A stretch of 64,000 bases of DNA from contig JAJEKV010000130.1 of assembly GCA_021234155.1 (NCBI GenBank), forward strand, positions 1,377,455 to 1,441,454, given 5' to 3'. The notes beneath the pieces are model-generated. The model had not been told where the DNA came from and did no database searches. It saw only the letters and a list, made by a program, of their open reading frames with translations. How positions within the stretch are numbered: position 1 is the stretch's first letter; the number at the start of each line of letters is the position of its first letter. Made by a program: the position numbers and the translations under genes. Positions 1 through 52,900 of the stretch are shown piece after piece. Origin of the DNA: Isoetes taiwanensis (lineage: Eukaryota; Streptophyta; Lycopodiopsida; Isoetales; Isoetaceae).

Positions 1-82
1 GGGGTTACGTATTGCTCTGGAGGCTCATTCCTCAAGGTTCGTCCGAGGTACATGACTCTATTCTCCTCAAGTTTCACCGCAG

Positions 83-1405
83 TGTGACGCCCCCACTCAG
101 ACACGTGCTTCCCACCGACAAACAGGAGTTCTCTCCCACACCAGCCTCCTTTGGCCGGAGCACAGGCTCCCCATATATCATCACATTCGCACCCAGTCCC
201 AAAGGGGAAGAGTGAAGGTGTCATTCCCACCGTCTCCCTGTGGCCTACCTAGTCATGAAGCGAAACATACATGTCAAGACTAACATATCTCATCCACCCG
301 TAAGGGTGGTATATCAACATTCCGCAGAGATGGGTCAAGACATCACATAGGGGAATCCTACCTGCCTGCACTAAGGGTGATCGATTTTATCAGTCTCTGT
401 GAGTCTATTGCGTACAGAATTCATGGCAATGGATTTGGCCGTATAAGAACATGGCAAAGGGTCCACTCCATCCGCCCTCCCGTGCACACTTTGCAAGAGT
501 AGGTCGAAAAGTGTTGGGACCTCGATAGCCCGCGCCGGATGCATAGCCACTTAAGGGGCTATTCCCTCGGTCTCATCCTCCTGGGCCTGGGATGAAGGTG
601 TAGGGATCACTCCTCCAGATCTACATGCCGACTAAGGTGACCAGAGGGCCACCGCCTGATTCGATCGAACTCCACCGGAAAGGTACACCACTACTTGAAA
701 TGAGCCCATGCCTTACCCGCACTCGCTGTAAGCCATTAGGACTAGTCACAATGATCCCCTTTTGTGAGGCTTTACACTGTGGGACTGCTCAGAGTCGTAA
801 CATGAACCTCCTTCTGCTGGGCCCTGCCTCACCCCACAACCAGTGTGGCTCTTTGCACACAGCTTATCCAGCAGCGTAGAGGCTACTCTAGAGCATCAAC
901 TATGTTTAGGGCTCTACCCCTTCCCAATACAAGGAGTTCACAGAGATACATCATCTAAATACATTTCATGTAAGAACTAAAGAATCCAGATCTAATCGTA
1001 GAGTTAGGTTCTTTAGTTAGTGTCCTAGATCTACGATCTAGATACATTATGGGCAATTTAATAAATTAACCCTCACTGATTCTATGACTCAGGAAGACGC
1101 TTAAGCTTGGCTAAATTGACCAAATACCCGATCCTCGAGTGGCTCCTCCCGACCTCGAAGCGTCCAACTATCCCCTACCGAAATGAGCTTAATCTGTGAA
1201 CTGATGGCACCGCTGGCTGCTCGGAGGCGGCAAGGTTTTTGGCCTCTGGGGTGCCAAACTGAGCTCTAAAAACCCTATGATCTAAAACTAGTAAGCTAGG
1301 TTTTCCCACCCTAAATAGACATGGGTTTATTAGGGTTTCCACCAATCTAACTTGGCATGTGGGATAACTGGAAAGGCCCCACTTGCCTTTAATGGCTAGG
1401 TGGCA
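83..1405. repeat. left LTR-like copy of gypsy element
   Basis: This block aligns along its length with 11317-12714. Both begin TGTGACG, share the phrase gaagagtgaaggtgtcatt, run through matching stretches such as ggcaatggatttggccg, and end tggca after aggccccacttgcc. In element orientation (minus strand) that gives TG...CA ends. The copy lies beyond integrase, where a 3' LTR is expected. I could not see a polypurine tract just inside its inner edge, nor a target-site duplication shared with the right copy, so it may be a rearranged or independent copy rather than the true partner. Its CTG and CAG words differ from the right copy in the pattern described in the findings. Confidence 0.7.
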
Positions 1406-2559
1406 AAAATGTCAAATACGGAAAGGTGTGTTCTCATTAATGTGCACCCGTGCACACAATATACATGAACACTCCAGCAAGTTGCCCCAGCTACTTAATT
1501 CGGCCATCCGCTATGTGACATTGCCTGGCCTGAGTATGCGGTACGCTGGATTTGGCAAAGATGATACGCCCCGGACCGTATAATCGCGGCCGGGAAACGC
1601 CACATTCTCCCTCTAATTTTGAAATGATGTCAGTCTGCAGATCGTGGGTCTCCCCACCTGGGATCTTCCTAACTGCATCCGCAATCAACGGATGCATACA
1701 ATATAATAGTTATATACATTTACCGTGATTACCCTATGTAATATTTTTAAAAACATTATTACGCTTTCATTACACTATGGAATACTGTCAATTCACAACA
1801 TCATTAAACAAGGTATCCACTATCTCAAGTTAGACAAACATTTCATATCTATAATTATTGTCCTGAGGTACTTTTCATTCCTTGCAACACATTCCAACAA
1901 ACCAGTTGTAAGTCTCGTGAGTTCGACCTCCTTGCTCCCCTGGAGTTTCCACCGCCTCACAGGCCGATACCACGTTAGTACCGTTAATTATTTTAATAAA
2001 TTTTGCCATATGGTGACCACCCCACCCATCTACACATGAATGCATGGCCAATCTCCTGCCGTAGTAAGAGGATGAATCTTCCATAATGGTCAGGAGACTG
2101 CCGCCTATATGCCCATATGCCTACCATGCTCACACCTAGTTGGCTCAACAGGAGGATATCCTCTGCATGGAAGGATGGATTCTCCTATCAAAGCATATAT
2201 GGGGCTAAAGGTGCTTTCCTATCAATGCAGCATTCCTTAATGACCCTTTCTCTCGAGAATGCCTACTCGCGGGAAACGTAGCGTAGGCTTTCTAATCTAC
2301 CTTCCACCTCTCTCGCCCACCGGAAACGCCGTCATGCCTACATTGACATTACACCACGCCCCGAGATCACCGTGAGTGGTCCATTTATTTGGTGAATAAC
2401 GATGCACCCATACCAAGCATAGGTTGCATGCGTAGATTAATCTATACAAGAATTAACCCACACAAATCGACATGCCCTATTTACTTCTTTGAGATGACCT
2501 TGTCGTCTAATCTGTTCCATAAACTGCACGCTTTTTACTAAACTCTTCTTAAGCACCCA
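1406..2559. other. internal gypsy sequence, no recognisable gene
   Basis: The stretch lies between the left LTR copy and the chromodomain remnant, so it would be the 3' part of the element. Short minus-strand frames exist, for example at 1491-1697, but I recognise no domain in them. I see no polypurine tract next to position 1405. Confidence 0.4.
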
Positions 2560-3149: not shown

Positions 3150-3695
3150 TGAATAAATTCTTCCCACATACTTTGCTTATTCCGCATATAGTTTCGTGAG
3201 CACGTCTCTAAGATCCCCGCTGGTCCGCCTCCGTCCCGCCATCCGTCTCGAGGATGATACGCCGGCTCATGGATAGCTTGGTCTGAATCGCCGCAAAGAG
3301 GTCTTGCCAAAAGGCACTCATGAACTTCGGATCCCTGCTCGAGATAATCTCCCTTGGCATGCCATGAAGCCTCCTCAAGATCTCTTTGTGAAGAGCTTTG
3401 TCAGATCCATAATGATTCCGTGGTCCTCCGCAAGGCACAAAATGTGCCATCTTCGACAACTTGTTTAATTACTACCATCAAGGCATCCTTGCCTCTCATT
3501 GCTCTGGGAGTCCCGGTGATGAAATCCATGCTGATTACTCCCACCAGCGCTTAACCTCCCATCACACGGTTTAATGCCCCTGAATCTGTTGCCTCCGGTC
3601 AATGTACTGCATAGTCGACATTCCTTGATGTAGCGAGCTATTTGCTTCTTCATTCCTCTAACAATAGTTGCCGCGCACTTTGAAACATAAGTCAT
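3150..3695 (-). pseudogene. Ty3/gypsy integrase (zinc-binding plus core) remnant
   Basis: The 3465-3695 minus frame holds an H2C2-type segment with MKKQIARYIKECRLC, then pieces of a core start (HGFHHRDSQSN, out of frame with the usual MDFITGLP). The 3208-3459 frame has MSKMAHFVPC, LHGMPREIISSRDPKF and SAFWQDLFAA, which are standard gypsy integrase core motifs around the second catalytic aspartate, followed by TDGGTE. Integrase inserts the cDNA into host chromosomes. The protein is split over at least two frames. The break after MSMSR coincides with CAG codons that appear altered here, so some of the damage may be artefactual. Confidence 0.85.
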
Positions 3696-11303: not shown

Positions 11304-11315
11304 GCTCTGATACCA
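11304..11315 (-). promoter_or_regulatory. primer-binding site for initiator tRNA-Met
   Basis: The plus strand reads gctctgatacca, so the minus strand reads TGGTATCAGAGC. That is the 12-base complement to the 3' end of plant initiator methionine tRNA used by many plant LTR elements. It lies one base inside the inner edge of the right LTR and fixes both the minus orientation of the element and the right LTR as its 5' LTR. Confidence 0.9.
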
Positions 11316-11316
11316 C

Positions 11317-12714
11317 TGTGACGTCCCCCTCACCTGCATACGGTGCTAAACGTGACACAAACAGGGAGTTCTTCCCCCACACCAGCTCCACATGCCGACA
11401 TGTGGCCCTCCACATATCATCGCACCCGTGAACCAGTCCCGTGGGAAGAGTGAAGGTGTCATTCACCCCTCGCCTCCCCGTGGCCTACCTAGTCGCTGGA
11501 AGCGTAAAACATACATGTCGCAAGACACAACATATCCTCCATCCACCCGTATATGGTATATATCATGATATCGCAGACAGCGGGTCATCACATAAGGAAT
11601 CCTACCAAGGCTTAGATTTCAAGGGGTGACCGGACGGGCTTTGGGTTCTAGAGTTCATTGCGTGCATGTAATTCATGGCAATGGATTTGGCCGGGTATAA
11701 GAACATGGCAAGGGGTGTTCAATCCATCCGCCTCCCCTCCCGTGCACACTTTGGGTGAGTAGGGTCAAAGTGTTGACCTCGATCAGAGCTCACGGATGCA
11801 TAGCCGAAGGGCTATTCCTGGGTCTCATCCTCCCAGGCCCTCGATGGGGCAGGTAGGGATTACCCCTCCGTGAGATCTACATGCTGGGACCCACAAAGAC
11901 TATATAGCACTATGGCAGGCCACCCGCACATGGTAATCGACCGGAACAATCCACCGGAAAGAATGTACACCACTGGTCACGGGCCGCTTTTTGATACCAT
12001 GCCTTTGCCCACACCGAACCTCTGTACACCACCAAGCCATTAGGCTTGTCCCTAGTCACAATGATCCCCCTGAGGCTTTACACAATTGTGGGATCGCTCA
12101 AGAGTCAAACATGAACCTTCTTTGCCCGGGCCCCTTCCACCCACAACCGTGTGTGGCTCTTGTACACAAAGCCGGAATTCCTCTATAGTGCTAGAGAGGC
12201 TACCTAGGAGCATCAACCATGTTTTAGGGGCTCACCCCCTTCCCAATACAAGGAGTTCACCGATAGATCATCCAAATATTATCAATGTAAGAACTAAAGA
12301 ACTAGATCTAATCATAGAGTTAGGTTCTTATTAGTGTCCAGATCTAAGATCTAGATATCTATGGGCAATTTAATAGTCTAAAACCCCATTCGTATGACTA
12401 GAAGACGGTTTAAGCACAAACTGACCAAATACCGATCCTTGAGTGGTTTCTCCCACCTGAGTTCAACCATCCCCGCTTGAGCTGAGCGAATTGGGGAACT
12501 GGGATGCATGCCACCGCTACGATGCTCGGGAGGCTGCTTTGGCTCCCCCTCGGGCAGCCAAACCGAGCTCTAAAACCCTAAGGACTTAAAACTAGCAAGC
12601 TAGGGTTTTCCTACCCCAAATAGACATGGGGTTTAGGCTAGGGTTTCCAATTACCCATTTTGGCATGTGGAATAATTGAAAGGCCCCACTTGCCTTTTAA
12701 TGGCCAGGGTGGCA
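11317..12714 (-). repeat. 5' LTR of the gypsy element
   Basis: On the minus strand the LTR runs from TGCCACC (12714) to CGTCACA (11317), giving TG...CA ends and a length of about 1.4 kb. The primer site follows directly. It aligns with 83-1405. It should contain the promoter and polyadenylation signal of the element; I cannot place a TATA box with confidence. Confidence 0.8.
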
Positions 12715-15700
12715 AATCCAGTTGAAAATGTTTGTGTATGGGTGTTGCAAACTTTATTACTGTAATAATGGGATCAACTGCCTATCTTTACGGTAACTTT
12801 TTACTTTACGTTTCTATTTGTTTTTTATCAGATGAAATTCAAAAGCTACACAGTGATGAAAGCCTCTAAAATGAATTCTAGTTTTTCTGATTTGAATTTA
12901 AAATTTTTGTCACACCCTGGGGAGGGTAAGATCCCTCAAGGCCCGAAGAGGCCAAATTTTTTTTTTTTTTTTTTTAACACAATCATTAACATCCACATAT
13001 AATGGCAACCACCTGCCTGGCTGACATTCACATTGACACACTGGCTCACAACCATTTGCTCATCCCTGAACCCCTAGGCCTGCACATTCGCCACTCGGTG
13101 ATGTAGGCAACAGAACCCCAATCTTCAGATTTTGCACGCACGCAAATCAATACCATATAGTATCCCGCTTGAAATCTTATAGTATTTTCGTGAATCTTGT
13201 TAGCACAAAGATAGCAAATTTTGTACTCTGCCACCCCGCCAAACGAGGAAACCTTTACATACTGTAGATTAAGGAACAAAGTAAACAATATGCCTATCCA
13301 ATGCCTGCTCCTTTGAGTCATCACCTCCCCGGGGTGAATATGCACCAAACCAAAGGGGGTTTAAGGGGGATTTTAATCTAGTTCTGTGTTGGACCCAATG
13401 GTTGGTGTTAACTTAATTGTACCGGTAGTTATGTGTTGCCGTTAATGCCTTCAAATGGTTGTTATGTGTTGGTCGTTATGTCAGACTTAATTTCTTATAT
13501 GTTGATGTCAATGGGCTCATTTTAATTAGTTGGGACAGTTGATTATTCACAAAGCACAATGCCTACTGACTCATGTGCGAGTTTGGGTGCATTGGACATA
13601 CGTAGGGGGTAGCGGTTACGCTTTGGGGATTAACTCATAAATGAGCACCCCTGCCAACTTTGCCTTTATGGTGGGGCTTACTGATTGCCTGGCCCCGGGT
13701 CGAGGGAAAGATCTCCGTCACTCTGGCTGTACAAAATAGGGTTCCCGCCAATAGCTTTCACTCCGACCTCCGTATGAATCAGGCCTTGAGGAGGATCATC
13801 AGATGTCATTTTTCGCGGAAATTATTTGGAAATGGCGTAGGGTAAAGAATGATTCGCCCGAAGCGCCTTCTACGAGAAAAAAAAAAAAGGTTAGTTTAGG
13901 GTTTCTTGATATCCTTTCTTTCTTTAAGCCAAAAACTTAGTTCTTTCTTAATTTTCCTCTTGCATTTCAAGATGAAAGTGGCTACCTCACCGGTCGAGGT
14001 TAAGCTAAGCTCGAGGGCTATGTAATGAGGCGAGGATCCCAGACAATAACTTGGGATGAATGCCCTCGAAGATTTCCTGCGTATGGTCGAGCTTACCGAA
14101 GGAGGGAAAATCAAACTACACAAAGCCCGACTGAGCTTGCAAAGACCGGTTAGGGATTTGGCGTCGAAAGGTGTATGCAGTTTGGGATCAAGAACAAGGA
14201 AGCAAAGGGTTTATTTTGCAAAGAGCTTTTGCATGGCGTAAAAGCAAGACACGTACCAAAATATTTGTTAATCGGGGCAAGTTTGCATTTTACGAGTATG
14301 AACCAGCCAGAAAATGTTTAAAATCTGAGGATGTAGTGGGTCGACATGCTTAAAGAATATAAATGTGGGACTTGAAGCATTGCAAGATAGGGGCGGTACA
14401 TTTAAACTGAATTAAAAGCATGTCTTCTAGAGTCGCTGAGTCGCACAATGAGGTATGTAGGGTTGATGGCATGATTTCGCTTATGAAGATGCTTGCATGG
14501 CACTAGGGGATATTCAAAGAGCAAAAAGTTGCATTGTAGATTTCAGTTCTTTATTTCCGGAAGAAAGATGGAGCCCGAATGAACTTGCAAAAGGGGGTGA
14601 TGGTATGGGTTTATCTCTTTAACTATGGTAAGGAAAAAAGCATGATAGAGAAGAGGAGTGCCTTTCGGATCACGGGCACAAGACCTTGAGTTGCGCCTTG
14701 TCTTCTTGCCGACAACTCAACAAAGATTTTGAACGCCATTTCTAACTTGAACGGACTTGGATCTAGTACCTTCACAAGTCTTTGATCAAACCATGTGCGG
14801 TGAATGGACGGTTGTAGATGGGAAGGATGGATGCAAGGCCTGCATGCTTTCTTTTGACACAGTTTAGCTGGTGACATTAGATTGTGGACACTCATACCAT
14901 CTACTATGCTTCCAATTGTGCTTGGGAGAATTTGTGTTGTATAGTATGCAAGGCAACTATACCTACGTGGATTTACTAACACGTGGGATATGCAGATCAT
15001 ATCCCCATCCTTAAGAAGTTTCAGGGACAATGGCGGGGGGATGCATTCACGGTTTCAAGTGATTATGAAACTCCGACCAATGATGATAACAACATGAAAA
15101 GAAGGCCTATAACGAGCCATGACCAGTCCAATTTGGAAAAGGTAATTGCATTTTACATAATTGAATTAGAATGTAGAAGAATGTAAATTCTTTTAATTAA
15201 CATTTGTGCATTGTAGGAGCAAAAAAGAAGAGGAAGGTCACAGAGAACAAGTCGAGATTACATTAAAAACATGTTTGTTTGTTGTGTATGGATTCATGTG
15301 TAGAAGATGTTAATTGCTTTATTGATTTTGCAGATCCAAAGATCCCCAAAAACACCAAGAGTCCAAAGAAGGCCACTAACACCAAGAAATCCAAAGAAGG
15401 CCACCGCAATTTAAATGAATACAATACCGCTGATGGTCTTGCGATGATCGAGAAAGCAACACATTAGCTCAATCCCAAAAGCGAGTACCACAACATGCCC
15501 GAGAAGATGGGGTTGCTAAAGTATTAGATTTTGATGATGCCATGCCCACGCATTAAGTGTAAAGAAAGGGAAAAAGCATGCCTAGGAAGTGGAAGACTCC
15601 AAATAAGGAACTGATGGTATGAACCAATTACCATTACCATTACTAATGATATTGGTAAATTCTTGAATGCTTACTATTTTTTATTTTATTTTTTCGCCTT

Positions 15701-21888: not shown

Positions 21889-22678
21889 TTTTGAGTTCTC
21901 GATTTCGTTGATCTTTCTATTTGCAGCAGTGGTATAAGAAACTGCTGAAGAATCTTCTTTGTTTCTTGATATATTTGTGCCCAACAGGTACGTTTGCATA
22001 CTAGCATGAATACAATCTGCTTGATGCCAAAAAGTGGAAGCCGGCTATGTTGGAGCTGGCCGTTCTGTTCAGAGATGGTATTTTCGGCCTGTTGAATAAG
22101 ATTTCAAACATTTCTGGCTTTTGTGGCTTCGAATCATATATGCATCTCACTTTTGATAAGCTGCTATCACTGAACGAGTGATGATGGCAATGCACAAAAG
22201 GACTTTTTCCTTAGTCCGTAGATTTTTGGTAAAACATTTGGTTGCTTCTATAGACTGGCAGATTAAGACCTCTCATCATTCATCTATTCACTATTTCAAG
22301 GTAATTAATCAGAAGACTAATCTATTGCAGATTCATTACATATTCGTCTGGCCTTTTGAGACCATTTTTGTGTGCATATGTGCAGAGCTTTAGGAATTTG
22401 CACTCCAACCAGGCAAACGAAGAGGAGGTATAATCTCGGCTCTATATTTTGTAAGGAACTTGAGTGGAGGTATTGTGTGATCCATCAGCAACTTTAGCTT
22501 CTGCTTTGCATTTTCGAATGAGCTTGGACGCCTTATTTTTGCTTGACTGTTTTGCATAAACTTTGTGAGTAGGGCTTCATTACCTAAGCACTTAAGTCAT
22601 CTTTTTTCCATAGCCCAAAGAAAAAGCAGCCCAAAGAGGCACCATGGATTTTTGTTTCTGCCGCAAGTTTTGAAGCAA
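21889..22678 (+). repeat. direct duplication copy A with exon-like pieces
   Basis: This segment is repeated nearly in full at 23507-24294. It holds exon-like sequence: TTTGCAG precedes a frame reading QWYKKLLKNLLCFLIYLCPT (about 21927-21987), closed by a GT donor. A second piece (about 22008-22112) reads EYNLLDAKKWKPAMLELAVL and then FRDGIFGLLNK. I cannot name the gene. Its position upstream of a Helitron 3' end suggests gene fragments captured by that Helitron. In this copy CTG and CAG words look normal, whereas in copy B many are changed. Confidence 0.65.
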
Positions 22679-22689
22679 TTATAGATTAG

Positions 22690-23100
22690 GCTACCCATCC
22701 GACTTGGTCGGGTCTTTGGCACGCCGTTGTTGGCTTCCCACCCGACTTGGTTGTGTTTGGCTCCCCACTCGACTCGGTGGTGTTTGGTTCGGTTAGTTGG
22801 CTGCCCACCCGACTTGGTGGCTCTGTCGGTTAGTTTGGCTACCCAACCGACTTGGTGGTGTTTGGCCCCCGCATCCGACTTGGTGGTGGTTGGCTGCCCA
22901 CCGACCGGGTGCCCACTTCGACTTGATGGCTCGCCGGCCACCCATCCGACTTGGCGAGGACTTGGATCGCCGTTGTTGTCTCCCCACCGAGCTTGGTCAA
23001 GTCGTGTGGTCTAATCGATCATCTTGGCTACCCACACGACTTGGTGGTGTTTGGCTGGGTGGTTGGCTGGTCGTTTTGGCTGGGTGGTTGGCTGGTCGTG
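22690..23100. repeat. GC-rich minisatellite (CCGACTTGGTGG)
   Basis: About ten to twelve imperfect copies of a unit near GGCTGCCCACCCGACTTGG followed by TGGTGTTT occur, with unit length about 30-35 bases. The array ends in GGCTGGGTGGTTGGCTGGTCG doublets. It separates the two copies of the exon-bearing duplication. Confidence 0.8.
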
Positions 23101-23506
23101 CTGCTGACGTGTCAGGTCCCCTGTTATCAGCCATAGCCCCCCCTATCAGCCATGGCGGCGCGACGGGGCCTAGAGTCGCCGGTCCGTCCCCGCGAAGGCA
23201 AACGCTGGACCGGGCGAGGGCAAGGGCGCATTGCTGACGTGGAAACCATCTCGGCACGCCATCCAACACCCGTGATGACATGTCAGGCCCCCGTTATCAG
23301 CCAAAACCCCCAAGTATCAGCCCGAGGCATGCGCTGATGGGCCTAGAAACGCCGGGCGGTCGGAACGAAGTCTTTAACCAATGGGCGGGGCGCATTGCCG
23401 ACGTGGAAACCATCTCGCACGCATGGCCCAAGGCCGATGGATGATGTGTCACCCCGTTATCAGCCAAGTACCCCGTTATCAGCCGAGTATGCATACCGGG
23501 CCTAGA
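23100..23506. repeat. three-copy tandem repeat with GTTATCAGCC
   Basis: Three units of about 130-180 bases each carry a GCTGACGTG or GATGACATG phrase, a TGTCAGG or TGTCACC phrase, and two TATCAGCC boxes about 20 bases apart, then GGGCCTAGA. Units start near 23101, 23268 and 23440. GTGGAAACCATCTCG is shared between the first two junctions. The unit looks like a satellite rather than a gene. Confidence 0.75.
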
Positions 23507-24294
23507 GTTCTCGATTTCGTTGATCTTTCTATTTGCGGCGAAGTGGTATAAGAAACTGGCCAAGAATCTTCTTTGTTTCTTGATATATTTGTGCCCAACA
23601 GTACGCGTTTGCATACTAGCATGAATACACCGCTTGATGCCAAAAGTGGAAGCCGGCTATGTTGGAGCCGGGCCGTTCGTTCGAGAGATGGTATTTTCTA
23701 CTGTTGAATAAGATTTCAAACATTTCGGCTTTTGTGGCTTCGAATCATATATGCATCTCACTTTTGATAAGCCGCTATCAATGAACGAAAGTGATGATGG
23801 CAATGCACAAAAGGACTTTTTCCTTAGTCCATAGATTTTTGGTAAAACATTTGGTTGCTTCTATAGATCGGGCGATTAAGACCTCTCATCATTCATCTAT
23901 TCACTATTTCAAGGTAATTAATCGTAAGACTAATCTATTGCATTCATTACATATTCGTCCGGCCTTTTGAGACCATTTTTGTGTGCATATGTGCGAGCTT
24001 TAGGAATTTGCACTCCAACCAGGCAAACGAAGAGGAGGTATAATCTCGGCTCTATATTTTGTAAGGAACTTGAATGGAGGTATTGTGTGATCCATCGAAA
24101 CTTTAGCTTCGCTTTGCATTTTCGAATGAGCTTGGATGCCTTATTTTTACTTGATTTGTTTTGCATAAACTTTGTGAGTAGGGCTTCATTACCTAAGCAC
24201 TTAAGTCATCTTTTTCCATAGCCCAAAGAAAAAGCAGCCCAAAGAGGCACCATGGATTTTGTTTCTCACAAGAAGTTTTGAAGCAATTATAGAT
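23507..24294 (+). repeat. direct duplication copy B
   Basis: This is the second copy of 21889-22678, matching from agttctcgatttcgttgatc to agttttgaagcaattataga. It has the same exon-like pieces, but with many changes at CTG and CAG (for example agctgctatc to agccgctatc, and gactggcaga to gatcgggcga) that break the frames. Away from these words the two copies agree closely. Confidence 0.8.
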
Positions 24295-24990
24295 TTCTTT
24301 GTATGTTTTAAATCTTCTTTGATTTATGGGAATCAATTTGCTTAATGATGTTGACGGGATGGGTTGTCACAGAAGGGTACAAAACCAACAAGGAATTTGG
24401 GCCGCCATTAAAGACCCACTATCCATGTCTCAATAAGGCTCCAATGCAGTTTCATGGTTCAATGGAGGTAAGTGTCAGATCCTTGAATAACATTTAGATG
24501 TCCACATAGTGCATGTATAGGTGTTTTTATTCAAGGCTTATCATGTTTCTTTGCCCTTTATTGACCTTCGCAATACACCTTTTGTACATCGGGAACTTGA
24601 AAATCCTAAGCCAAGTTGGTGATTATGAGCTTACCCAATTTCTATTAAAATATAAAATAGTATGCCAAACGCCGCAAAATGAGCTTTAAATCGAGCGACA
24701 GATGATCCTAGAGTTCTTTGGATTATGTTCTTCATGATGGGGATCTATTGAGGCTTACGAACATATATTTTATAGTTTTAGATTGCACCAAAAATATTTT
24801 CTATTTGTGTATAGCAGAATTGTTTTGTTTAATATTTGGTTAAAGGCAATTTGTTGATATAACTGGCAATTGTTAAACCAAGAACGAAACATGTTTTTTT
24901 ACGAGTTTGTTCGTACTTTAATGGTGATATTTGTTCTCTATTGCACCTACAGCATATATTGCCATAAATGCAATCCACACGTCCAATAAT
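24295..24990. other. Helitron 3' internal region, no gene
   Basis: The stretch runs between copy B and the Helitron terminus. It is AT-rich with no notable open frame. It may include intron or 3' flank sequence of the captured gene. Confidence 0.4.
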
Positions 24991-26640: not shown

Positions 26641-26816
26641 GACGTGTAACAATTTTAATAAAAAAAAAATGTAAGAAGCTTGAAAGTCATTTTCTTAAGA
26701 ATATTGAATAAGAAGAAACAAAAATAGAATAAAATAGAGTATATATTTATGTGTCATGAAACAAGAAGAGTAAGAAAAAATCGTGTCAAAAAGAAGTCAC
26801 TATGTGATGCCTATAT

Positions 26817-31614: not shown

Positions 31615-34600
31615 TCAACTATCATTTCCATCAGTGTCATAAGCTGATTCCGAGTTATCTCCTGCCAATCCATCAGTGTCTTCTACAGGCTCGTCCTCGG
31701 GCAAAGTTGCATGTTCAAAAGTATCAGAGGGTTCCTCATCGACTCTCATGCTTTCTTCCACTGTGACTCCTTGAAAAATACGACGAGACCTCGGTGAAGA
31801 TTGTATGACAAACCACCAATCACTATCACTCCGATCAGGCATGAAGAAAACCTGCAAAATAATTGTCATTTAGATTGCTATTTAGAAGCGAATCCATAGC
31901 ACTTGAACCAACCTGTTCACAATTCTCAGGAAAAACAAGTGTTTCAGAGCCACGATATAATTTTGTGGAGTTAATAGCAAAGAAACCACTGATGTCATTT
32001 CTTACAGTTGGTCTTGGGCCTCTAAGTTGCAGATCAAACCAATCGACATCAAACACAATGGTCTTAAAGTCACCACCGACATCAACTTCCATGATGGTTT
32101 TCAATGTGCCAACCCAGTCAACCTGTGCTTGAGCTCGATTACGATCTGCTACACTTGATTGGAACTCCATCTCAAATGATGTCATAATTCCACAATCAAA
32201 CGTCTTTCTGTTCTTGTCAACATTGTGTACTCGATAGTGGGTACCATTCCACCACATAGAGGAATAAGATTGGAACTGCACATAACAAGAAAATAAGTAA
32301 CTAGCTCCCATTGGTAAATGATATTTAGACGATGTAACTATATTTATACATACCTGCTTCATAACCCCTTGTGCATATGACCTTTCAACTGAGGTAACCA
32401 ATTCACCTTCATTAATCGCGTCATGCATTGCATTGCGTACCCAATCTTGTGTCATCCTATCTGGAAAGCATTCATATCCAACTGGAAATGGACCTCGTCG
32501 ATTTAATTGTCTCCACGATTTTCTTTTTTGCTCTCTTTCTTTCTTTTCATCCTCATATCGGGCAAGCCATTTCTCCATCTCCTTGGCATTGTAAAGCAAA
32601 AAATTATTTATTTTAGCTTGAGCTTCTGGAGTAAATACCTTCTGGATGCCATTACCCTCAGTCACGATACCCACATTCTTCTCCTCTTCTTCATCTTTCC
32701 ATAGTCGAGGAGCTCCTGGATGCAAGTCAATGATGAACTCTGTCATATAAAATAAAGATTCTCGTGCTAACCACCCTTCAGCCATGCTGCCCTCTGGACG
32801 TGCCCTCTGCCGCACCATATCTTTTAAGACCTTCATAAACCTTTCCACAAAGAACATCCACCTGGCATGGACGGTCCCTGCAAGTTCAATCTCTTCCACA
32901 AGATGCACTAAAAGATGAGGCTGGATGTCCAGAAAGCTTGTAGGAAATTCTTTCTCTAACAAACAACATGCCTCAACCATCTTCACCTTCATCTCGTCTA
33001 TCTCATGCCTTGGGATCTGCTTTTGTGAAATCCATCTACAAGATTTTTAGCAATAAATTTTAGAAATGGTTCATAGAATCACATAAGTAAAACAAATATA
33101 TGCAATTGCATTTACCTTATAACCTTTGATAGTGTACATATCGCTTCTAAAGGGCCTGTACTTAAAGCACCCCTCAAAGACAATGGCATAAAGAACTACA
33201 TATTGAACACAGTAAAAGGAAATGTCAAACATAATGCTTGTCATACATCATAATTAAAGAAATACTTACATGAAGAAGCTTGTGCCAATCGTGAGACTTG
33301 AGACCTGTAAGCTCCCCAGTGGATGAAAATGCTCCGTGTAAGGAGTGCATGAAACCAGTTGGGGTGCGAAGGATTTTGAGATCTTCAAGGACTCCCCTTT
33401 GATCAACCTTACTAAGAACCCAAGCCGCATTTGGAGCATAGCCTTCATTATCGAGCCATGCTTTCTTCTTTGTATTTGTCAACTTGAGATCCATCCTTGC
33501 ACTTGCCGTGTCTTTCTCACCAAATAAATGCCTCCATAAAGAGTTTCCCACATTCTTGAAAATGTGCATCGGATCAAGAAGGTGCTGAATCAAAAGGCCA
33601 GTCCAATACGGGAGTTCATAAAACACTGATTTCCTTCTCATCCCATGAATTTCCTTTCCATTTGCTTTATCCCAACGTTTGCCCCATCTCTGAATAGTTA
33701 ATCTTTTAGGGGGAGGTGTATTGTCCTGCTTGCCATTAAAATGTACACGATCTTGTCGAAGGGGATGTGTAAGCGGCAGATATTTTCTAAAACCCTCATA
33801 CACCACCTTATTTAGATGTGGAGAGCGACGAGAAGCTAGATTTTCTCCACATATCATGCATGCATTATGGCCCGATACAGTAAAACCTGAACACTCTGCT
33901 AGTCCAGGATAGTCATGCATAGTCCATAGTAGGATACCTCGAAGTGTAAAAGACTCCTCTTTATGTGCATCATAAACATGAATCCCCACGTTCCATAAGC
34001 TTAACAACTCATCCACCACGATCTTGAGGTATACATCCAAGTTGCTTGGTTTCTTTTTCCCAGGAATCAATAAGGACAATATGATATGCCCGCTCTTCAT
34101 TAGTAACCATGGAGGTATATTGTAGTTTACTAGCAATACAGGCCATGTAGACCATGATGTGGACTGCCTTCCAAAAGGGTTCACTCCATCGGTAGCCAAC
34201 CCCAAGCGAACATTGCGTGGTTCATTCCCAAATTCAGGCCATGTCTTATCTACATGCTTCCATGCAACACTATCACTTGGAAGTCGTATTATGTCATCAG
34301 TAGATGCATTTGTCGCTGTGAAGTCCATGAGGCTAGCTAATGATTTGCACCGAAACATCATCTTCAGCCTTGGAAGCAATGGGAAATGGCGAACCATCTT
34401 CTCAGGTACATTCTTACCTTGCATATCATTTTTGTACCTAGAGGCATTGCACACCATACAATGCGTAGTTTTGCTAAATGTTTCAGGAGGATAGAAGATC
34501 ATGCAATCATTTGGACATGCATGAATGCTCTTGTAACCAAGGCCAGTTGCCTGAATAATCTTCTTCACATCATCTCGATGATTGGGTAAACTATTCCCTT

Positions 34601-35516
34601 CTGGAAGGATCTTCTCGTGCAATAACCTACATAACCAATATGATAAATGACCAATTAATAATTGTTGCTAATACCATGAAGACAAGTCCAACATATAACG
34701 ATTATTGATAAGATAGTAAAGAAAAGCCCGTACTAATCAACAAACAAATTAGTTAAGTTGCATACCTTAAGAGGTCAGACACACTTGTGTTGCTCCATCC
34801 ATACTTCGTTTGTAAATTGAGAATTAACAAGCAAGCAGACAATCTTGATGTTTGAGAGCCTGGAAATAGATTTGTCTCTGCCTCCACCATCATGGGATCA
34901 TTACCATAATAGTCATGTGTCTGTCCTCCATCACCAACATCTTCCTCGTATTCTAAATCATCCAAATCGACATCGGGATTAAGAGCTTCTAACATATCCA
35001 TCATTGGGTCCTCGCCACGAAACTCTGAAGAAGAGGGAGCACCCTCTAGTGTTTCTTGTTCTTCTCTCATTGCACTTTCTAAAGCTTTCCTGTGCTTGGG
35101 GTTGAGAACCCGTGGGTCAGGTTGAATGACCTACAAGAGAAGGTAACATAAATTCTATGCTGTAACTAAAATCATACATAAACTAGAGTTTGGATAAGCA
35201 CCTCATGTCCAGCACGAGCATCCGATGTAGTTGGAGCTTCATGTCTTCCCCATTTAATGAGATGATCCGTGATGATTGATCTGAAGCGCCTCTTTTGACC
35301 CACACATCGTTTGCAATCACACATGATCTTATCGGTCTAGTATTCATAGAAAAAGTGATAGTTACTTTGGCATGAATGTACTAACTAAAAGCAATGAATT
35401 CTTACCGGTAAAAGGGGAATCTCATCTTGTGGCTCTCTTCTGCTAACATCCTCTATAATCCTCAAAGTACGTTGTACACGACGATCAGCACGAATCGGAG
35501 CAACGCTATCATCCAT
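31615..35516 (-). CDS. CACTA TNP2 transposase, multi-exon, nearly complete
   Basis: The start is placed at 35516 because MDDSVAPIRADRRVQRTLRI opens a 37-codon exon closed by a GTAAG donor at 35405. Next come an exon with a CDCKRC motif and HLIKWGR (transposase-associated type), an acidic exon (34766-35131), and a large exon (about 33269-34622) with ACPNDCMIFYP, LATDGVNPFG, YNIPPWLLMKSGHIILSLLI, WTMHDYPGL and HLLDPMHIFKNV, the TNP2 catalytic-domain signatures. A DUF4218-like exon (about 32354-33003) has KEFPTSFLDIQPHLLVHLVE, followed by a C-terminal exon with FKTIVFDVDWFDLQLRG and a last one ending at 31615. TNP2 cuts the terminal inverted repeats. I see no obvious inactivating break, though one small exon near 33125-33230 is uncertain. 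Confidence 0.85.
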
Positions 35517-43495: not shown

Positions 43496-43695
43496 ACCAT
43501 ATCTTATACTTGTTGCTGCCCTACATGGATGGTCATCGATGATCGGCGGATGGCCGGAGTTGATGTTGTCTTACCACCGAGGGAGGCGGATATCTTGAAC
43601 GTCCATGTAAGTATTGATGCCCAATTTAGTAACCCTGGACATATATAAACTAGGAGGGCGTTAATGCTACTTGAGTAAAAAAAACGCAGTGTTTT

Positions 43696-43985
43696 TTGGT
43701 CCAAGGACGGTCGCCTCCACCTTGAGTGGAGAGGGACCGGGTATGCCGGCCCAAACTCACCTTCATACCTTTTACTAAGTACAATGTAGATTACAAAATT
43801 GAGGTGTCGCTAGAGTCAAGGTCATATGTCGACTTCACCTTGAGTGGAGGGGACTCTATGTATCAAGGGAGCTGGCCCTCCAAAAGATCTTTATTGAAAT
43901 TGAAACTTATATAAGGGTCATTACTTGGGAAAGGGCATGGTCGCTTCACCTTGAGTGGAGAGGGACTACGCGGTCCCAGCCCAAT
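43696..43985 (+). repeat. three hairpin repeats (CTCCACC..TGA..GTGGAG)
   Basis: Three units spaced about 115 bases apart carry GGTCGCCTCCACCTTGAGTG or close variants, followed by GAGAGGGAC and a GGCCC/GCCC word. CTCCAC and GTGGAG can pair around a 5-base loop. The same unit forms a six-copy array at 55985-56565. Confidence 0.8.
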
Positions 43986-43991
43986 TCTCAT

Positions 43992-44057
43992 TTAGGATTT
44001 AGGATTTAGGGTTTAGGGTTTAGGGTTTTAGGGTTTAGGTTTAGGGTTTAGGGTTTA
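43992..44057 (+). repeat. interstitial telomere-like TTTAGGG repeats
   Basis: About nine units of TTTAGGG occur with small variants (TTTAGGA, TTTTAGGG, TTTAGG). This is the plant telomere motif in a short internal array. Confidence 0.85.
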
Positions 44058-44344
44058 TACTACCATATATTGTATCTATCACGGCTTCAAACTATTGTGC
44101 AAAGATATAGTACTTACCTTTTGTAATTGGCATAGGGACAAAATAGTTTTATGCATTGTAAAAGATGTATGGGGAAGAGACGACTTAGAACGGTTGTTGA
44201 AGACCATCCGATAAGATTTGGTACATTTGAACAACCCACCGATCTGATGCTCGCCATGGATATCGTTGGTATACAATTATTATTTGTTTTTTTTTTTTAA
44301 GAGTATCTCCCAGCACCCAAGTATATATTCAAGATGTTTATGAT

Positions 44345-44870
44345 ATCTAAATATGTAGGTAGATGATGCGGATGTCTCCTCCAAACTAGATGTGGATTTT
44401 GGTTTAATGTTGTCCATAGAGGCATATGAAACCGGCAAAGAACTCGATTCATCAATAATGTGGATGGGTGCCGCTAACGCCGAGTGTTCCCCACGGAAAG
44501 AAACACGAAGGGCTACAATCATGAGAACATTGCATGTGTCACACATTTCCCAAGAACGCTTTGGCCTCACCGCCTCGAAAGGAAATTCCCAAGAACTGCA
44601 AAGATTAGTCCGACCCTTTGTTAGGCACCGCAAGACATTTGGCTTGTGGCCAATAGACTTACCTATCCCTATGGATCAAGAATTTGCTTATTGGGGAAGA
44701 AGATACATCATTATGCGGAGCCGCATTTGTCCAGAAGCTGGATTAGGCCTTATCTCCTAAGACGCCAGATAGAAGTGGAGCGAGACACCCACATTCCATT
44801 AATGCCATATGCGTGTCCCGAAAGCAATGATTGGAAAACTTGGCAAACTTTGACTAAATATGCTTGGCGA
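44345..44870 (+). other. open frame, family not recognised
   Basis: The 44392-44760 frame (122 codons) reads MDFGLMLSIEAYETGKELDS and MRTLHVSHISQERFGLTASK. An overlapping shifted frame continues to 44873 with PYACPESNDWKTWQTLTKYA. It precedes the SET-like piece and may be the N-terminal part of the same captured gene. I cannot name it. Confidence 0.35.
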
Positions 44871-45150
44871 TGAGGATTTATGGAATGAATTCCAATGTCG
44901 CTACGATAGTCAGTGGGGCATGTGATGAGGAGTTGAAGTTTATTGATGGTCGGCCGGGGGTTCATGGCAATATTGCGTGGTTCATCAACAGCTCTATTGA
45001 CAACCGTGGAGCTTATGCAATTGTGAATTTTAGAGTGTCAAGGAGGGGAGGAAGATTTTTTACAAGATGTGTAAAAGGCGATATATCATGGTGTGTGCTA
45101 TTAAAAGCATAAACATTGAGATGAGTTATTCATCAACTATCGCTATGATA
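44870..45150 (+). pseudogene. SET-domain-like remnant
   Basis: A plus frame reads IVSGACDEELKFIDGRPGVH followed by GNIAWFINSS, which resembles the G-N-x-x-x-F-I-N-H/S-S core of SET methyltransferase domains. After a frameshift the next frame gives KMCKRRYIMVCAIKSI, resembling the strand before the SET catalytic tyrosine motif. SET proteins methylate lysines on histones. Only this short core is visible, with one frameshift and no clear post-SET cysteines. It sits next to a decayed CACTA transposase and could be captured cargo. Chance similarity cannot be excluded. Confidence 0.45.
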
Positions 45151-45399
45151 GACCTCTCCCATTTGAGATGGAACAATAGTATTGTTGTACTAAAAAAAGG
45201 AATAAAGAGGATTTTTTTTTTAAATATGTTTTTGTCATTCGTGAGTCTATACAAATGGTTGTATGTATTTTATACTTATTACATTATTTGACATGATGGT
45301 TAATACGTTACTCCCCGCTTAATGAACTCATTCGTGAGCGGTCTCCATCCCGATCCATTAGTTCTAAGTTACGTGCAAAGGGAAACCTATCGCCGTGAA

Positions 45400-48300
45400 T
45401 TTCAAGCCGAGCGCACCAATATGAAGATATTGCATACGCATCAATATGAAGAGGATGAAACTATTGATGAACCCGAACGGTTCTTCGTGACGAAGCCGAT
45501 GCTTGATATGTTGCACGCTTCTTCAAGAATTACCTCGATATTGATTTAGATGATGTCGAGGGATGGTGGTGGAGAGGATATGGTAGAAGATGTGGGATAC
45601 CCTTCGAGGATTGGTCGTGACCGACGATGACCCTATTGTTATCGGGCGTAAACGCAGCTTATTTCCGCGCCTCAACCTCTCGCTTGTCGGCGCGGCTCAA
45701 GCAATTTCAATCTCCAAACCAAGTTCAAGTGGAGCAATGCAAGTGTCTCTCGCTCTATTGAGGTGATATACTTATCAAGTCTTTTCTATCTTACCACCAT
45801 CTCCATCTTTTATCTTACCACTCTTAGATGCGCAGTTATTGCACGAGAAGATCCTTCCAGAAGAACAATATGCCTACCGGCTGCATCTCAAGTTAAGAAA
45901 ATGATTCAAGCGACCGCCTTGGTTATAAAGTCATACATGCATGTCCAAATGATTGTATGATCTTCTATCCCCCGCCGAAAGCATGAGAAGTCCACTCATT
46001 GTCTCGTATGTAATGAACCGAGATACGTGAATGACCTAAAGGGAAAAACGGTACTTTAAGGTTATTCGACACTTTCCAATAATCCCAAGGTATATGCATC
46101 ACCACTTTTTACAAATAGTTGTAAATTCACTTTATTTTCTGTTTTATATGTTGCCTATAATTTATTCTATAGGTTAAAGTTGATGTTCCGCTGCAAGACA
46201 TTGGCTAGCCTAATGGATTCTCACTGGCCACACATGCATCTAGTGATGATGTGATGCGAGTCCCGAAATTTACAAGCAGTAGCTTTGAAGCATGTCGATG
46301 CGACATGGCCTCGACTTTGAAAAAGAACCACGTTAACGCATGCGCTTTGGGCCCGGCCACCGATGGCGAAACCCATATGGTACACAATCGACCGCATGGT
46401 CTACATGGCCAATGATGATAGTGAACTACAACATACCCCCATGGTTGTTGATGAAGAGGGGCACATTATGATGACTTTATTGATACCGGGAAGAAAAAAC
46501 CAAGTAATTTAGATGTGTACCTAAGAATAATTGTGGATGAGTTACTCCCCTTTGTGGAACACGTATTCGTGTCTACGATGCCCATAAAAAAATGACGCTT
46601 TTAATCTTAGAGGTATACTATTGTGGGACTATGCATGACTTTCCGGGCTTGCCGAAAGTGTTCGGGTTTAAGACATCGGGCACTTCCTTGCATGATATGT
46701 GGGGAAAAGTTGCAAAGACCGCCACTCTAAGCATCCAAGAAAGTAGTATACGAGGGTTTTAGGAAGTATTTGCCGCCACGCACTTCTTCGTAAAGCAAAG
46801 TACAATTCGGGTGGCAATCAGACTATACGTAACCACCGCTGCACTACCATACGAGAATGGGGTGAGCGCTGGGATAAGAAGGAAGAGGGGAAAATCCGCA
46901 AGGGGAAATCCAGTGAGGGGGCACCAGAAATGAGGAGGTCGTGAGCCGACCTAGACAAAGGAGGATGAGGAATTATACAAAGGTGGCGAGGAAGCCGCGA
47001 GGAGGAAGTCTTTACCGCCAATATGAAAAGGAAGTCTGCTTTTTATAGACTACCATATTGGACCCACCTATTGATTCAACACCTTTTAGACCCGATGCAT
47101 ATCTTCAAGAACGGGAAACTCTTTATGGAAGCATGTATTTGGTCAAAAAGACACAACAAATGCCGTGATGGACCTTAAGGTAAGTAATACAAAGAAAGAG
47201 GCATGGATCCGAGGTGAAGGGCAACCACTTCCTCCCAAAAATGGGTTATTGCTAGGGCTGACCATCGAAGCTATTTATGATGATTTAAGGGCCCTTAGAA
47301 CACCAACCGGTTATATGCAATCATTGCGAACCGCATTCACAAGTAGTGGGAGCCGACCGGGTTTAAAGTCCCATGACTCGCATAAGTTCTTGCATGTAAG
47401 CAATTGAAGTCCACATATATGCACTACTATAAAATGTAACCCATAACTTATATTTGGTGTTTGATCATGCGCTTCTTCATGCCCCTCGACCTTTAGGGGA
47501 GTTTTAGACAAGGGACCATTGAGGCAATAAGTGCCCTATCAAAGGTCATAAGGTTGTTACCCATGTTGATTTAGTGGTCCCCGCCTATTTTATTTGTGGC
47601 TAAGTTTTTGTTTTGGACCTCATAGGTGGATGTGTAAAAACTATACCAAAAGACTAAATTGAAGAGATGAAAGTGAAAATGGCGAGGCATGTTGCTTGTT
47701 GGAGAAGGAGTTTCCTACGAGCTTTCTTGATAAAACCCATCTTTTGGTACATCTTATTGAGGAAGTGGAGCTCATGAACCGTATATGCCGATGGATGTTT
47801 TTCTTGGAAAGGTTTATGAAGGTATTGAAGGATATGGTGCGCCAAAGAGCACGCCCCGAAGGTAGTATGGCGTAGGGATGGCTTGGCGAAAAGAGTCACT
47901 TTTCTATATGACGAATATATTTCCGCCAGACATCCGTGATGCACCTCGCTTATGGAGTGATGAAGGGGACGAAGATTGTGGGGGTAGTGGCGTAAGGCAA
48001 TGGTATGCGTAAGTCATTTCACCGATATGATCATTATAGGTTAATCAATTTCTTCTTTACAATTCGCACCAATGGCAAAATGGATTGCTCGCTATGAGAA
48101 CGCAAAGGAAGAAATGGAAGAGAAGAGGCATGAATGGAGACGACATAATAGACGAGCCCCGCACTCGATGGATATGAACCCTGCCTCTGACAAGATGGAA
48201 AGAGAATGGGTACTACAGTGCTTTGACCGATGCATATCACAAGGGGGAGTATATTACAGCCTACTAATGGGCATACGACAAGGTGTCATGAAAAGGTAGT

Positions 48301-49060
48301 TGCAACAAATTATGTTGATGTCGAAATCGAAAGTATTTTCTTTTGATGTTATTGTATCTATTGACATTAATGGTGCTTTTGACAAAGATATATCTTACTC
48401 CTCGATATGGTGGCATGGGACCCACTATCGCGGTGAGTTCTCTTGACATACACAGAAGACTTGTGATCATGAGTCATGGCATCATTCACGATGGAGTTTC
48501 AATCAAGTGTTGCCGATCGTAATCGCCGAAGCCACCCGTGATTGGGCCTGAGGTTAAAGACTATAATGGAGGTGGATGTTGGTGGCAATTTTAAGACCTT
48601 CATATTCGATGTCGATTGGTTTGACCTTCAATTAAGGGGCCAGCCTACAAGAAAGTATGATAGAACAAGTGGCTTTTTCATTGCCAACTCTAGCAAGATG
48701 TACCCCGGTAGTGAGACGCTTTGTCCTTCCGCATAACCGTGAACAGTACACACATACACATATCCACTTCAAAATTTAGACCATCAATATCAATCTCACG
48801 CCCAAATTTTTTGACCAGATTTTTTCTTTACCGACGACAAGACCCAACATGGTGGTTTATCATACAAACTACACCGAGGGGACGCCCAATATTCCAAGGT
48901 GTTGTGCTAGAGGAGTCAATAACGCCCCAAGAGCCCTCCGCGCATCAAGGCATTCAAACTCACCCAAAAAACGAGCATCAAGAGGTTGGACCACCAGCCA
49001 TGCAAAGATCTTACACCGTAGCAATTCCACGAAATACGATGTACTTCCGTGCATTTTAAT
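45400..49060 (+). pseudogene. decayed second CACTA TNP2 transposase
   Basis: Plus-strand pieces follow the order of the intact copy at 31615-35516. An acidic piece near 45490-45560 has MLDMLHAF and LDIDLDDVE. IQATALVIKSYMHVQMIV lies at 45901-45960, and NTKKEAWIRGEGQ, LRALRTPTGYMQSL and LKSHDSHKFLHV at 47165-47407. The DUF4218-like part is at about 47654-47940. MAKWIARYENAKEEMEEKRH lies at 48072-48299, KTIMEVDVGGNFKTFIFDVD and WFDLQLRG at 48542-48736, and TWWFIIQTTPRGRPIFQGVV at about 48840-48910. Many frameshifts and stops separate the pieces. It belongs to the same subfamily as the first copy but is clearly diverged. Confidence 0.85.
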
Positions 49061-49847
49061 ACAAATGTTGGTAATGCTAACAATGACGAATTCCTAGTTA
49101 GCACCTAGAGGAGACGATCATTAAATTTATATGTCAAATATTATGCACATCCTCGCAATCCTTCCGATAGGCTATGTCTATTGGTCTTCGTGGTGCAATA
49201 AAACCCATTCAATTCAATTTTTTTTTTTCCCCCTTTGGTATACATTATATCTGAGGAATAAAGAACGGTGGAACATGGGCTCAAAGAAGCCACATAGGCT
49301 CAAGCATTGCCTCTAGACTAGAACATGCCACCTAGGCTCCAATAGAAGATCAAATATATGCCACATAAAGTAGAGAAAAAAATACAACACATGACGCCAC
49401 AATGACATGTTGCCACAATGACATGGAGGCCAAAAAACAGCTTGCACAAGCACTCAAATCTTTGGTAAGGATTTGGATTTCAACTCGTCCAAAGAGTCTT
49501 CAATGGTATCTTAGTTACTTCCGATTTTCTAACCTTAAACCAAAGCCACCACCAAGTTAACCTCGATCATTGCTTAATTTGATGCTATCCACTAGCTTTC
49601 TCATTGTGGATCAATGCTTCTACCTTTCAAACAAATAATAATAATGGTATTTTGTAGGGTGAACAAGTCCAAATACATAGAGTGAAGCATGAGGAGCCTA
49701 CAGACGTTGAACGTAGGCGTTGCATTTCCTTTAGGGCCTAACATGCCACCTAGGTTCAAACAAGCCTCTTAGGCTCAAGCATTGTCTAGGCTCAAACATG
49801 CCCCAAGATCAAACATGTACACAACAAAAATAAAAATAGTTTAAACG
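49061..49847. other. 3' flank of decayed TNP2, no gene
   Basis: The stretch contains clusters of GCCACCTAGGCTC and TAGGCTCAAGCATTG words near 49290-49345 and 49735-49815, a loose direct repeat. I see no terminus of the CACTA type. Confidence 0.4.
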
Positions 49848-49868
49848 ACGCCGCTATAACAAAATACG
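49848..49868. repeat. direct repeat flanking the macrosatellite, left
   Basis: The word CGCCGCTATAACAAAATACG recurs exactly at 54752-54771. Both copies are followed by several GCGACG/CGACGT words, resembling CACTA subterminal repeats. Confidence 0.8.
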
Positions 49869-49935
49869 CGTGATGCGACGTATTGACGCCGCAGATGCGA
49901 CGCATACAAATACTGACGTTAAAAACTCATTTCTT

Positions 49936-52900
49936 AGTTGGGTGAACATGAGTGGTCTTCGCCGTGGAAAATTGGTCCCCGTGGCAATGTCGACGCCCCG
50001 AGTCCATTTGCAGAGATCGAATCGCGGCTCCGGGAGGCAAGATCGCCTGGCCCGGCCCCGTGGCCTTGGGGAGAGGAAATTTGGGGCAAGCAACCGGGAT
50101 TTTAGGGTCTCCTCTTCAAGCGTCAACACCCCACTCCACGCCAAGTCACGGCGCAAGGTCCCCGCCCGAACCGACAAGGAGAGAGCTTCCAAAACGTAAA
50201 CCCCGTGGGCTGCCGTGTTCTAGAAGGGTTTTATGCTTTGGGGGCCGAGACTTGGTCTGTTGCACTTGGGACCGGGTGAGAAGCCGCAGCCGGAATACGA
50301 GCAAGGGGAACCGACGGAGCGAGTTTGGGCCCCCTCCTCCCTCCCGATGTGGCAAGTAGAAGTCGGGGGCTTTTGCAAAGGCAAGACATTCATAAATTCG
50401 TAATTAATGCATTGTACGAAAAATAAATTCTGATTTTTTGCCACCTGGATTCCTAATCCATCTCCAAAGACATAGCCCAATTTTTGAATTTTCTGAGAAG
50501 GTCTAGGTCAAAGGGTTAGCTAAGGTCAAAGGAATGGAGTTTATGGGATCGTTGTACTTGGGGTTGACCTTGGCTCACCGGACCTTATACTTGGTCTAAG
50601 ATTGCATTGAGAATATAAGCATCATAACTATTAGAATGAAGATAAATGATTACGTAAAAGCATCATAACTACTAGAATGAAGATAAATGATTACGTAAAA
50701 GCAAAAAGACTAGTGCGGGTTGGGGGGGGGTTAGATTTGGTTGCTTGTGATGATGGTTGTGTTTCAAAGATCAAGGCATATGGATAGAGAGAATGCCCTT
50801 GTTCAACCGGGGATCGCCTCCCTAAAGCTATTTTGACATGGATTGCATAATTAACTTGTAATGAAATCAATTCGAGCAAGCAACTTCCTGGGATTTTAGG
50901 GTCCCATCTCAAGGCCAACACCCCCACTCCATGTCAAGACACGGCTGAGGTCCCACCAAATCAAATCCCGACAAGGAGAGGGCCTCCAAAACGAAAACCC
51001 CGTGACTTGCCGATTCTAGAAGGGTTTTTGTTTTGGGGGGCTTGAGTCATGGTCTTCCGCCCCTATCTTGGTCCCTGAGGGCAACTTATCGATGTTCTCC
51101 CGATGCTCCATTGGGCGAAGCCAAATCGCAGCTTGTCAAAGGGGAGGTTCAAAGGCCTTAGGGAGAGGAAATCGACTCGAGGGGGATTTTAGGGGGGAAA
51201 TCCGACCCCAAGAGGCAAATTACCTCCAGCAAGTTACTCCCGGTCAAAATGAAAGAGAACCTTCCCCGCCAAGGGCCCCTCGACAAGGAGAGTGACTACG
51301 AAAGTTGATGGAAGGGTTTGTCGCTTTTGCGCTCGGAGGTCATTTGGTCTTCGCCCACGAACTTGGTCCCCGTGGCAATGTCGACGCTCGGAAAGAACAC
51401 CTCCATTACCCGCAGGCCAAATCCGATTCCGGAGAGGGAGGTCGCCTGGTCCGTCCCTGTGGCCTTGGGGAGAGGGAAACTCGGGCAAGCAGCATTTTTG
51501 GTCCGTAAAGATTCAAGGTCCAACACCCCCACTCCCCACGCCAAATCACGACAAGGTCCCGCCATCCGACAAGGAGAGGGCCTCCAAACGAAACCCCGGT
51601 GGGTTGCCGTGTTCTAGAAGGGTTTGCATTTTGGGGGCCGAGACTTGGTCTGTTGCACTTGGGACCTGGCCGAGAAGCAGCAGCCGAGAATACGGAGCAA
51701 GGGGAACTGACGGAGCGGAGTTTGGGCCTGTCCTCCTCCCGATGTGGCAAGTAGAAGTCGGGGGGCGCTTTTGCGTTGGCAAGACATTCATAAATTCGCA
51801 ATTAATGCATTGTAACTAAAATAAATTCTGATTTTTGCCGCCTGGATTCCTAATCCATCTCCAAAGACACAGCCCAATTTTTCAAATTTTCGTGAGAAGG
51901 TCTAGGTCAAAGGGTTAGCATTAGAACGGGCCGGGCAGCCCGCTGCGTGGCAACCGAGCCGGCACCCTTCCCCAAGTCAAACGAGGCCAGGACCTTGCAG
52001 GGATCCCCACAAGAGGGGAGAGTCCCACCCCAAGAGGCGGGATCCAAAAAAAAAGTTCCCTAGGCAGCCCTTTCCTCGGCAAATAGCTCCCCTGGGTCAG
52101 ACGCTAATGACCACCCTCCCGAGCCCGGTTCCCCATCCGGACGCTGATCCTCCGTCAGGGCCCCCTTCGAAGGCCCAAAAAGATTCCGGGATCGGGTCCG
52201 AGAACTTGTCAAACCGCAGGGCGCCCCGAGGTCGGGCCTTGTAGAAACCGGGCAGTTGTCTTGTCGCTCGCACCGGGAGGCTTCCGAAATGGCAAATCGA
52301 CTCGCCAAATCGTCCTAATGGCGAAATTACCCTAGGGAGCAAGTTACAAGGTGGGTTTTGCAAAAGAAAGAAAACACTCACGCCCTCCACGACAAGATCC
52401 CGCATCCACATCCTAGCCAACCGACTACGAGTGTGATGGAAGTGAGCTACTTTGGCGCTTCTTGAGGTCGGGTGGTCTTCGCCATAGAACTTGGTCCCTG
52501 TGGCAATGTCGACGCTTCGAGTCCATTGGCAGAGACAAATCAGCGATTCCCAGAGGGGAGGTCGCCGTCCGCCTCCGTGGCCTTGGGAGAGAGGGCCTCG
52601 GGCAAGCTGCCTTCGGGGATTTTAGGGTCCGGCTCAAGGGCCAACACCCCCACTCCACGCCAAGTCACGGCGCAACATCCCGCTCAACCGGAGAAGGAGG
52701 GCCTCCAAAACGTAAACCCCGGGGGCTGCCGTGTTCTAGAAGGGTTTGCGCTTGGGGCCGAGACTTGGCCTGTTGCACTGGAACCTCGGCCGAAGTCAGC
52801 ACCGAGATTACGGAGCAAGGGAACTGGACGGAGCGGAGTTTGGGCCTGTCCTCCTCCGATGTGGCAAGTAGAAGTCGGGGCGCTTTGCAAAGGGCAAGAC

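Follow-up and report, generated by a model that had tools for sequence, protein, structure and literature searches.

Probable nanopore consensus errors at CAG and CTG, putatively linked to CHG methylation, in one copy of an Isoetes taiwanensis duplication

The window analysed here is the whole stretch of 64,000 nucleotides of Isoetes taiwanensis DNA taken from contig JAJEKV010000130.1. An LTR-like repeat lies at 80..1407 and its repeat partner at 11314..12716; the original prediction read the two as gypsy LTRs. A frame on the gypsy side, 2972-3400, matched no Pfam family. The duplication that forms the centre of this study comprises copy 1 at 21893..22687 and copy 2 at 23505..24295, both on the plus strand. 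A Tnp2 relative whose long open frames run to 480 and 403 codons occupies 31835..34667 on the minus strand, its frames 33225-34667 and 31835-33046 carrying the Tnp2 and DUF4218 domains by Pfam, and a broken Tnp2 (CACTA-type) transposase relative lies on the plus strand at 45833..48746. The two Tnp2 regions (31766-34626 and 45835-48902) are in inverted orientation and 65-71% alike. Tandem blocks with a unit of approximately 1.1-1.4 kb, some 80% alike and separated by very many short indels, extend over 49952..54602 on the plus strand.

Pfam searches with eight frames returned Tnp2 (PF02992) and DUF4218 (PF13960) above the cut-off, DUF4216, HTH_29 and STPRs below it, and nothing for four of the eight. 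Among the best 120 of 929 matches to the Tnp2 frame, those with a named source were from plants except for one labelled as a bacterial MAG; in the same set the lowest E-value among named matches belonged to Prunus dulcis (40%) and the most alike were Adiantum (49% over 67%) and Riccia (45% over 79%). A 199-codon open frame at 19815-20414 on the minus strand gave a weak helix-turn-helix match (PF13551, under the cut-off). Long purine- or pyrimidine-rich tracts occur at 35793-37156, 41930-43520 and 55030-55880, matching one another at about 61-71% with the first inverted relative to the others; with respect to transcription, two of the three are upstream of the two Tnp2 copies. An interstitial array of the plant telomere type TTTAGGG (43991-44057) comprises about 9.6 units with 91% matches, and an ACGT-rich tandem array at 26210-26660, with two copies of a 145-base unit and a CpG observed/expected ratio (o/e) of 1.64 in that kilobase, may mark one end of a CACTA element. 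ARAGORN, run with the bacterial code, identified no tRNA in the window.

The duplication copies are 93.7% identical by BLAST, with ends that are approximate, and 733 of 782 columns match in the alignment of 21893-22663 with 23505-24271. The eight short words from which the original prediction argued each occur once, on the plus strand, as pairs at 21922/23534, 22063/23676, 22159/23770 and 22253/23866. That the sister copies differ mainly at CTG and CAG (together CWG throughout this analysis) is borne out by the complete alignment tabulated by trinucleotide, the check originally suggested: 21 of the 25 CWG words of copy 1 are broken in copy 2, compared with a background of 103/769 for all triplets, 6/90 for ATG/CAT, TTG/CAA and GTG/CAC pooled and 0/19 for TAG/CTA, with the same result across five alignment scorings. 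As adjacent triplets are not independent, Fisher tests on triplets are rough, and we preferred to group adjacent differences into events and to place these at random. Twenty of the 30 events fall at a CWG of copy 1; in 20,000 random placements the mean was 3.36 (sd 1.72) and the maximum 12. Four CWG survive in copy 2, with no clear common context on inspection.

Copy 1 reads cleanly, with 25 CWG and a CpG o/e of 0.50; copy 2 is eroded, with five CWG and a CpG o/e of 0.90, and is the deviant member of the duplication. Its CpG count is 27 vs 15 in copy 1, at a GC content of 0.389 vs 0.390. Length is altered at 16 of the 21 lost CWG sites and a new CpG appears at 15 of them, CpG gain at lost control words being 1/8 and 2/6 for two word sets. 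Three of the ten events away from CWG are one-base contractions of A/T runs, all shorter in copy 2, so that, on small numbers, three of the eight A/T runs of at least five bases in the duplication are contracted there and none is expanded. Contraction of A/T runs is another known nanopore error, and copy 2 thus contains, again on small numbers, the homopolymer-length companion errors found in nanopore consensus sequence.

The prediction that the same pattern would separate the LTR-like repeats also held: only 1/30 anchored CWG sites are kept in one direction (control words 79/147) and 1/15 in the other (79/132), 10 unanchored CWG having been set aside in each. CpG was gained at 12/29 lost CWG one way (control 10/68) and at 2/14 the other (8/53), and this restriction to a single direction counts against the explanation that we favour below. 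Between these repeats, at 3220..3260 on the minus strand, a CGAG divides an integrase-like motif between two reading frames, one giving YHP and the other TDG-G-TE. Provided that the intact motif is YHPQTDGQTE, which we take it to be, the split fits the proposal that a CAG is written there as CGAG.

In the other repeats the effect at CWG is weaker than in the duplication. For the 51-54 kb pair, CWG was kept at 11/39 anchored sites one way and 11/30 the other, against 170/251 and 170/257 for control words. Two pairs involving the 50 kb repeat lost 3/8 and 4/8 CWG, and 8/13 and 2/6 in the other direction, where about 34% of all triplets are lost; the concentration of errors at one motif class that is found in the duplication is therefore little or not at all in excess in these pairs, which counts against the explanation favoured below. 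Two repeats that we took as controls largely retain their CWG: a plus-strand pair at 38185-38496/39004-39295 keeps 11/11 one way and 11/14 the other, and a 158-base tandem pair at 57585..57900, also on the plus strand, keeps 4/4 both ways with 0 indels, giving pooled values of 15/15 and 15/18. The two CWG present in a further control pair, at 26 kb, are both lost; this counts against the trend, on numbers that are too few. The ratio of gap events to substitutions came to 0.91, 1.00 and 0.97 for three affected pairs, whereas four control pairs gave 0.57, 0, 0 and 0.

Against a Markov null, pooled CWG o/e is 0.55 in the affected blocks (27.6 kb) and 0.78 in the blocks taken as normal (20.35 kb, satellite and low-complexity parts excluded), a value that is itself below 1 and to that extent counts against the division. 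Of seven blocks compared, 43600..50000 is the most strongly depleted (CWG o/e 0.27, CpG o/e 0.81), and the 37.2-41.9 kb stretch has a CWG o/e of 0.88 and a CpG o/e of 0.38. The claim that 26-41 and 57-64 kb are normal consequently stands for the pooled values, but not for several single kilobases within the first block (CWG o/e 0.49 at 27, 0.35 at 35 and 0.36 at 40 kb), and depletion is not confined to the blocks originally named, since 13000-21880 has a CWG o/e of 0.58, with CCG/CGG at 1.31, and is perhaps a further affected stretch. An exon-like stretch at 29622-30287, where local CWG o/e is 1.04-1.31, matches plant chloroplast MinD; among the best 120 of 2014 matches, several of the top ones (Araucaria, Physcomitrium and Ceratodon being among those named) show 93% for a quarter of the query length. 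Together with the Tnp2 matches, this assigns the window to a land plant. Over 59 one-kilobase windows (5 of the 64 being excluded as satellite or low-complexity), CWG and CpG were negatively correlated under a mononucleotide null (Spearman -0.48; -0.43 as a partial correlation on GC), although under the Markov null the correlation was weak (-0.25, p 0.05), which counts against a tight relationship. All 16 combinations of bases flanking CWG are depleted, with normalised ratios of 0.35-0.86. Sparing of CCWGG, a possible fingerprint of a bacterially trained caller, was not found in this comparison, its ratio of 0.48 lying in the middle of that range.

Aligned over 784 codons to its intact relative, to which it has about 67% DNA identity, the broken transposase shows 32 frameshifts but only 3 in-frame stops: 21 frameshifts and 0 stops in a first part with 281/431 identical residues, and 11 and 3 in a second part with 210/353. 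These counts come from a home-made aligner, for which three outside relatives (P0001, P0003, P0005) served as a control, each giving 0 frameshifts on the intact copy and 11 on the broken one (with 0, 0 and 1 stops). The excess of frame breaks over stops suggests that indel error is likelier than slow decay. The frameshifts are not enriched at CWG of the intact relative (6/21 against a background of 0.22, and 1/11 against 0.32), in a test limited by the poor ability of a relative only about 67% identical to predict which CWG were lost, nor are they clearly enriched at CpG (10/21 and 7/11; background 0.45). Over 227 columns of conserved residues the broken copy has 62 changes, 2 of them of CWG type, and the relative 0/35, numbers too few to weigh. 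As the breaks cluster neither at CWG nor clearly at CpG, CWG is not established as their cause. The advice not to trust frameshifts in the affected blocks may accordingly rest on a ground wider than error at CWG.

Natural decay of methylated repeats reduces CpG and increases TAG/CTA, and neither was found between the duplication copies; TAG plus CTA number 20 in copy 1 vs 21 in copy 2, so that the extra TAG/CTA expected from CHG decay is not seen there, nor in the 59 windows, where CWG and TAG/CTA correlate at 0.08. The signature of 5-methylcytosine (5mC) deamination or RIP-like decay, consisting of C-to-T and G-to-A changes only, is likewise absent from the lost CWG of the duplication, most of which change length. 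Decay might instead have run in the opposite direction, ancestral CCG/CGG being kept by copy 2 and lost by 5mCpG deamination in copy 1: CTG and CAG are indeed the deamination products of CCG and CGG, and of the two copies it is copy 1 whose CpG o/e is lower. Deamination in copy 1 should, however, also have generated ATG, TTG and GTG with their partners, of which only 6/90 differ, and it does not produce the length changes seen at 16/21 lost sites. Together with the gain of CpG at constant GC and the static TAG/CTA, these length changes argue against C-to-T decay in either direction as the main cause, in agreement with the original judgement that natural decay is unlikely, most changes altering length and sitting at CWG. 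We regard an origin by deamination in copy 1 as very improbable; the indels refute it as the main cause, and a few plain substitutions could still be deamination.

Two other explanations were weighed. Methylation-independent miscalling of k-mers at CWG, by nanopore or another long-read method, could have persisted in repeats after polishing with short reads had corrected copy 1 and the unique blocks; the strongest errors are found in repeats, the A/T-run signature is present, and the locality of the effect suits uneven polishing as well as it suits uneven methylation. Yet the copies as read are only about 94% identical, such that short reads might map to either, ATG, TTG and GTG with their partners differ at few sites (the same 6/90), and the published errors of ONT reads at motifs with a CWG core are, in the passages available, dependent on modification (PMC6591954, PMC10687267). 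We consider miscalling of this kind unlikely. The confinement of strongly context-bound changes to one sister copy would also suit a real process in vivo, so far undescribed, that mutates the CWG of CHG-methylated DNA into CpG forms and small indels. We know of no repair or deamination route, however, that would give loss of T or A, insertion of G and gain of CpG together, and the A/T-run contractions and the frameshift-rich, stop-poor transposase point to read error; such a process appears to us the least credible of the three, with hardly any probability attached to it.

We therefore favour, as very probable, the view that copy 2 carries systematic errors of the nanopore consensus where CHG is methylated, as probably do the other CWG-poor blocks. 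The proposal of methylation-linked basecalling or consensus error is thereby supported in so far as the changes are bound to CWG, create CpG (15/21) and are local; the link to methylation itself we infer from sequence. CHG methylation is usual in plant transposons. A putative pathway would begin with native DNA read on a nanopore instrument, in which CAG and CTG of the affected blocks would be methylated at C on both strands. A basecaller whose knowledge of 5mC came chiefly from human and bacterial training data might then often write CpG at 5mC in an unfamiliar context, which would account for the observed conversion of CTG/CAG to CG, CCG/CGG, CGAG and similar forms; new CpG is the outcome to be expected where a caller associates 5mC with CpG. 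Being systematic, such an error would not be removed by read depth and would reach the consensus. Lack of CHG methylation, or better polishing, may have spared copy 1, the control repeats and the region of the MinD-like exon, and the distribution of affected blocks would follow CHG methylation, uneven polishing or both.

Errors of this general kind have precedents, described here from the passages of each source that were available. In a bacterium, approximately 70% of the consensus errors left by ONT callers under their default models fell at CCWGG, and errors at this motif likewise arose with a human-trained model (PMC6591954). Those Dcm-site errors resemble the present ones in placing 5mC in a CWG core, in being systematic and dependent on training and in surviving into the consensus, and differ in being bacterial and restricted to CCWGG, where here all 16 flanks of CWG are depleted in a plant (PMC6591954). 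Modification errors at GCAGC and GCTGG degraded ONT genomes of Listeria, and amplification restored their quality (PMC10687267); motifs with a CWG core are again miscalled in native DNA, although these are two narrow motifs with the chemistry left open and not the broad CWG context seen here (PMC10687267). Poor ONT accuracy on native plant DNA has been attributed, as we propose here, to modifications or methylation absent from training (PMC7501810, PMC9749173), and species-specific callers raised plant read accuracy (PMC9749173). The available passages of these plant papers contain no error table by context (PMC7501810, PMC9749173), and those of PMC9749173 make no mention of CHG. In the parts of the open-licence literature that we searched, we found no description of a CWG-to-CpG gain in plant ONT assemblies, which is not proof of absence.

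Most of the differences between the sister copies are thus probably artefacts of sequencing, of a type already known in general terms, and neither reading frames nor repeat ages can be relied on within the affected blocks. In such plant assemblies, errors at CWG would make repeats seem more diverged and LTRs older than they are, disrupt reading frames and splice sites, and create false CpG, mimicking stretches that are CpG-rich and CWG-poor. A count of CWG lost between copies, taken with CpG gained, would flag them without recourse to reads. We give an even chance to a further reading, under which CHG methylation leaves a fossil record in plant assemblies from native nanopore DNA, as CAG/CTG eroded into CpG words, and copy 2 belongs to a methylated domain that starts somewhere from 22.7 to 23.5 kb. 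If this is true, CHG methylation would be scorable from finished sequence alone, by comparison of sister copies or in one-kilobase windows.
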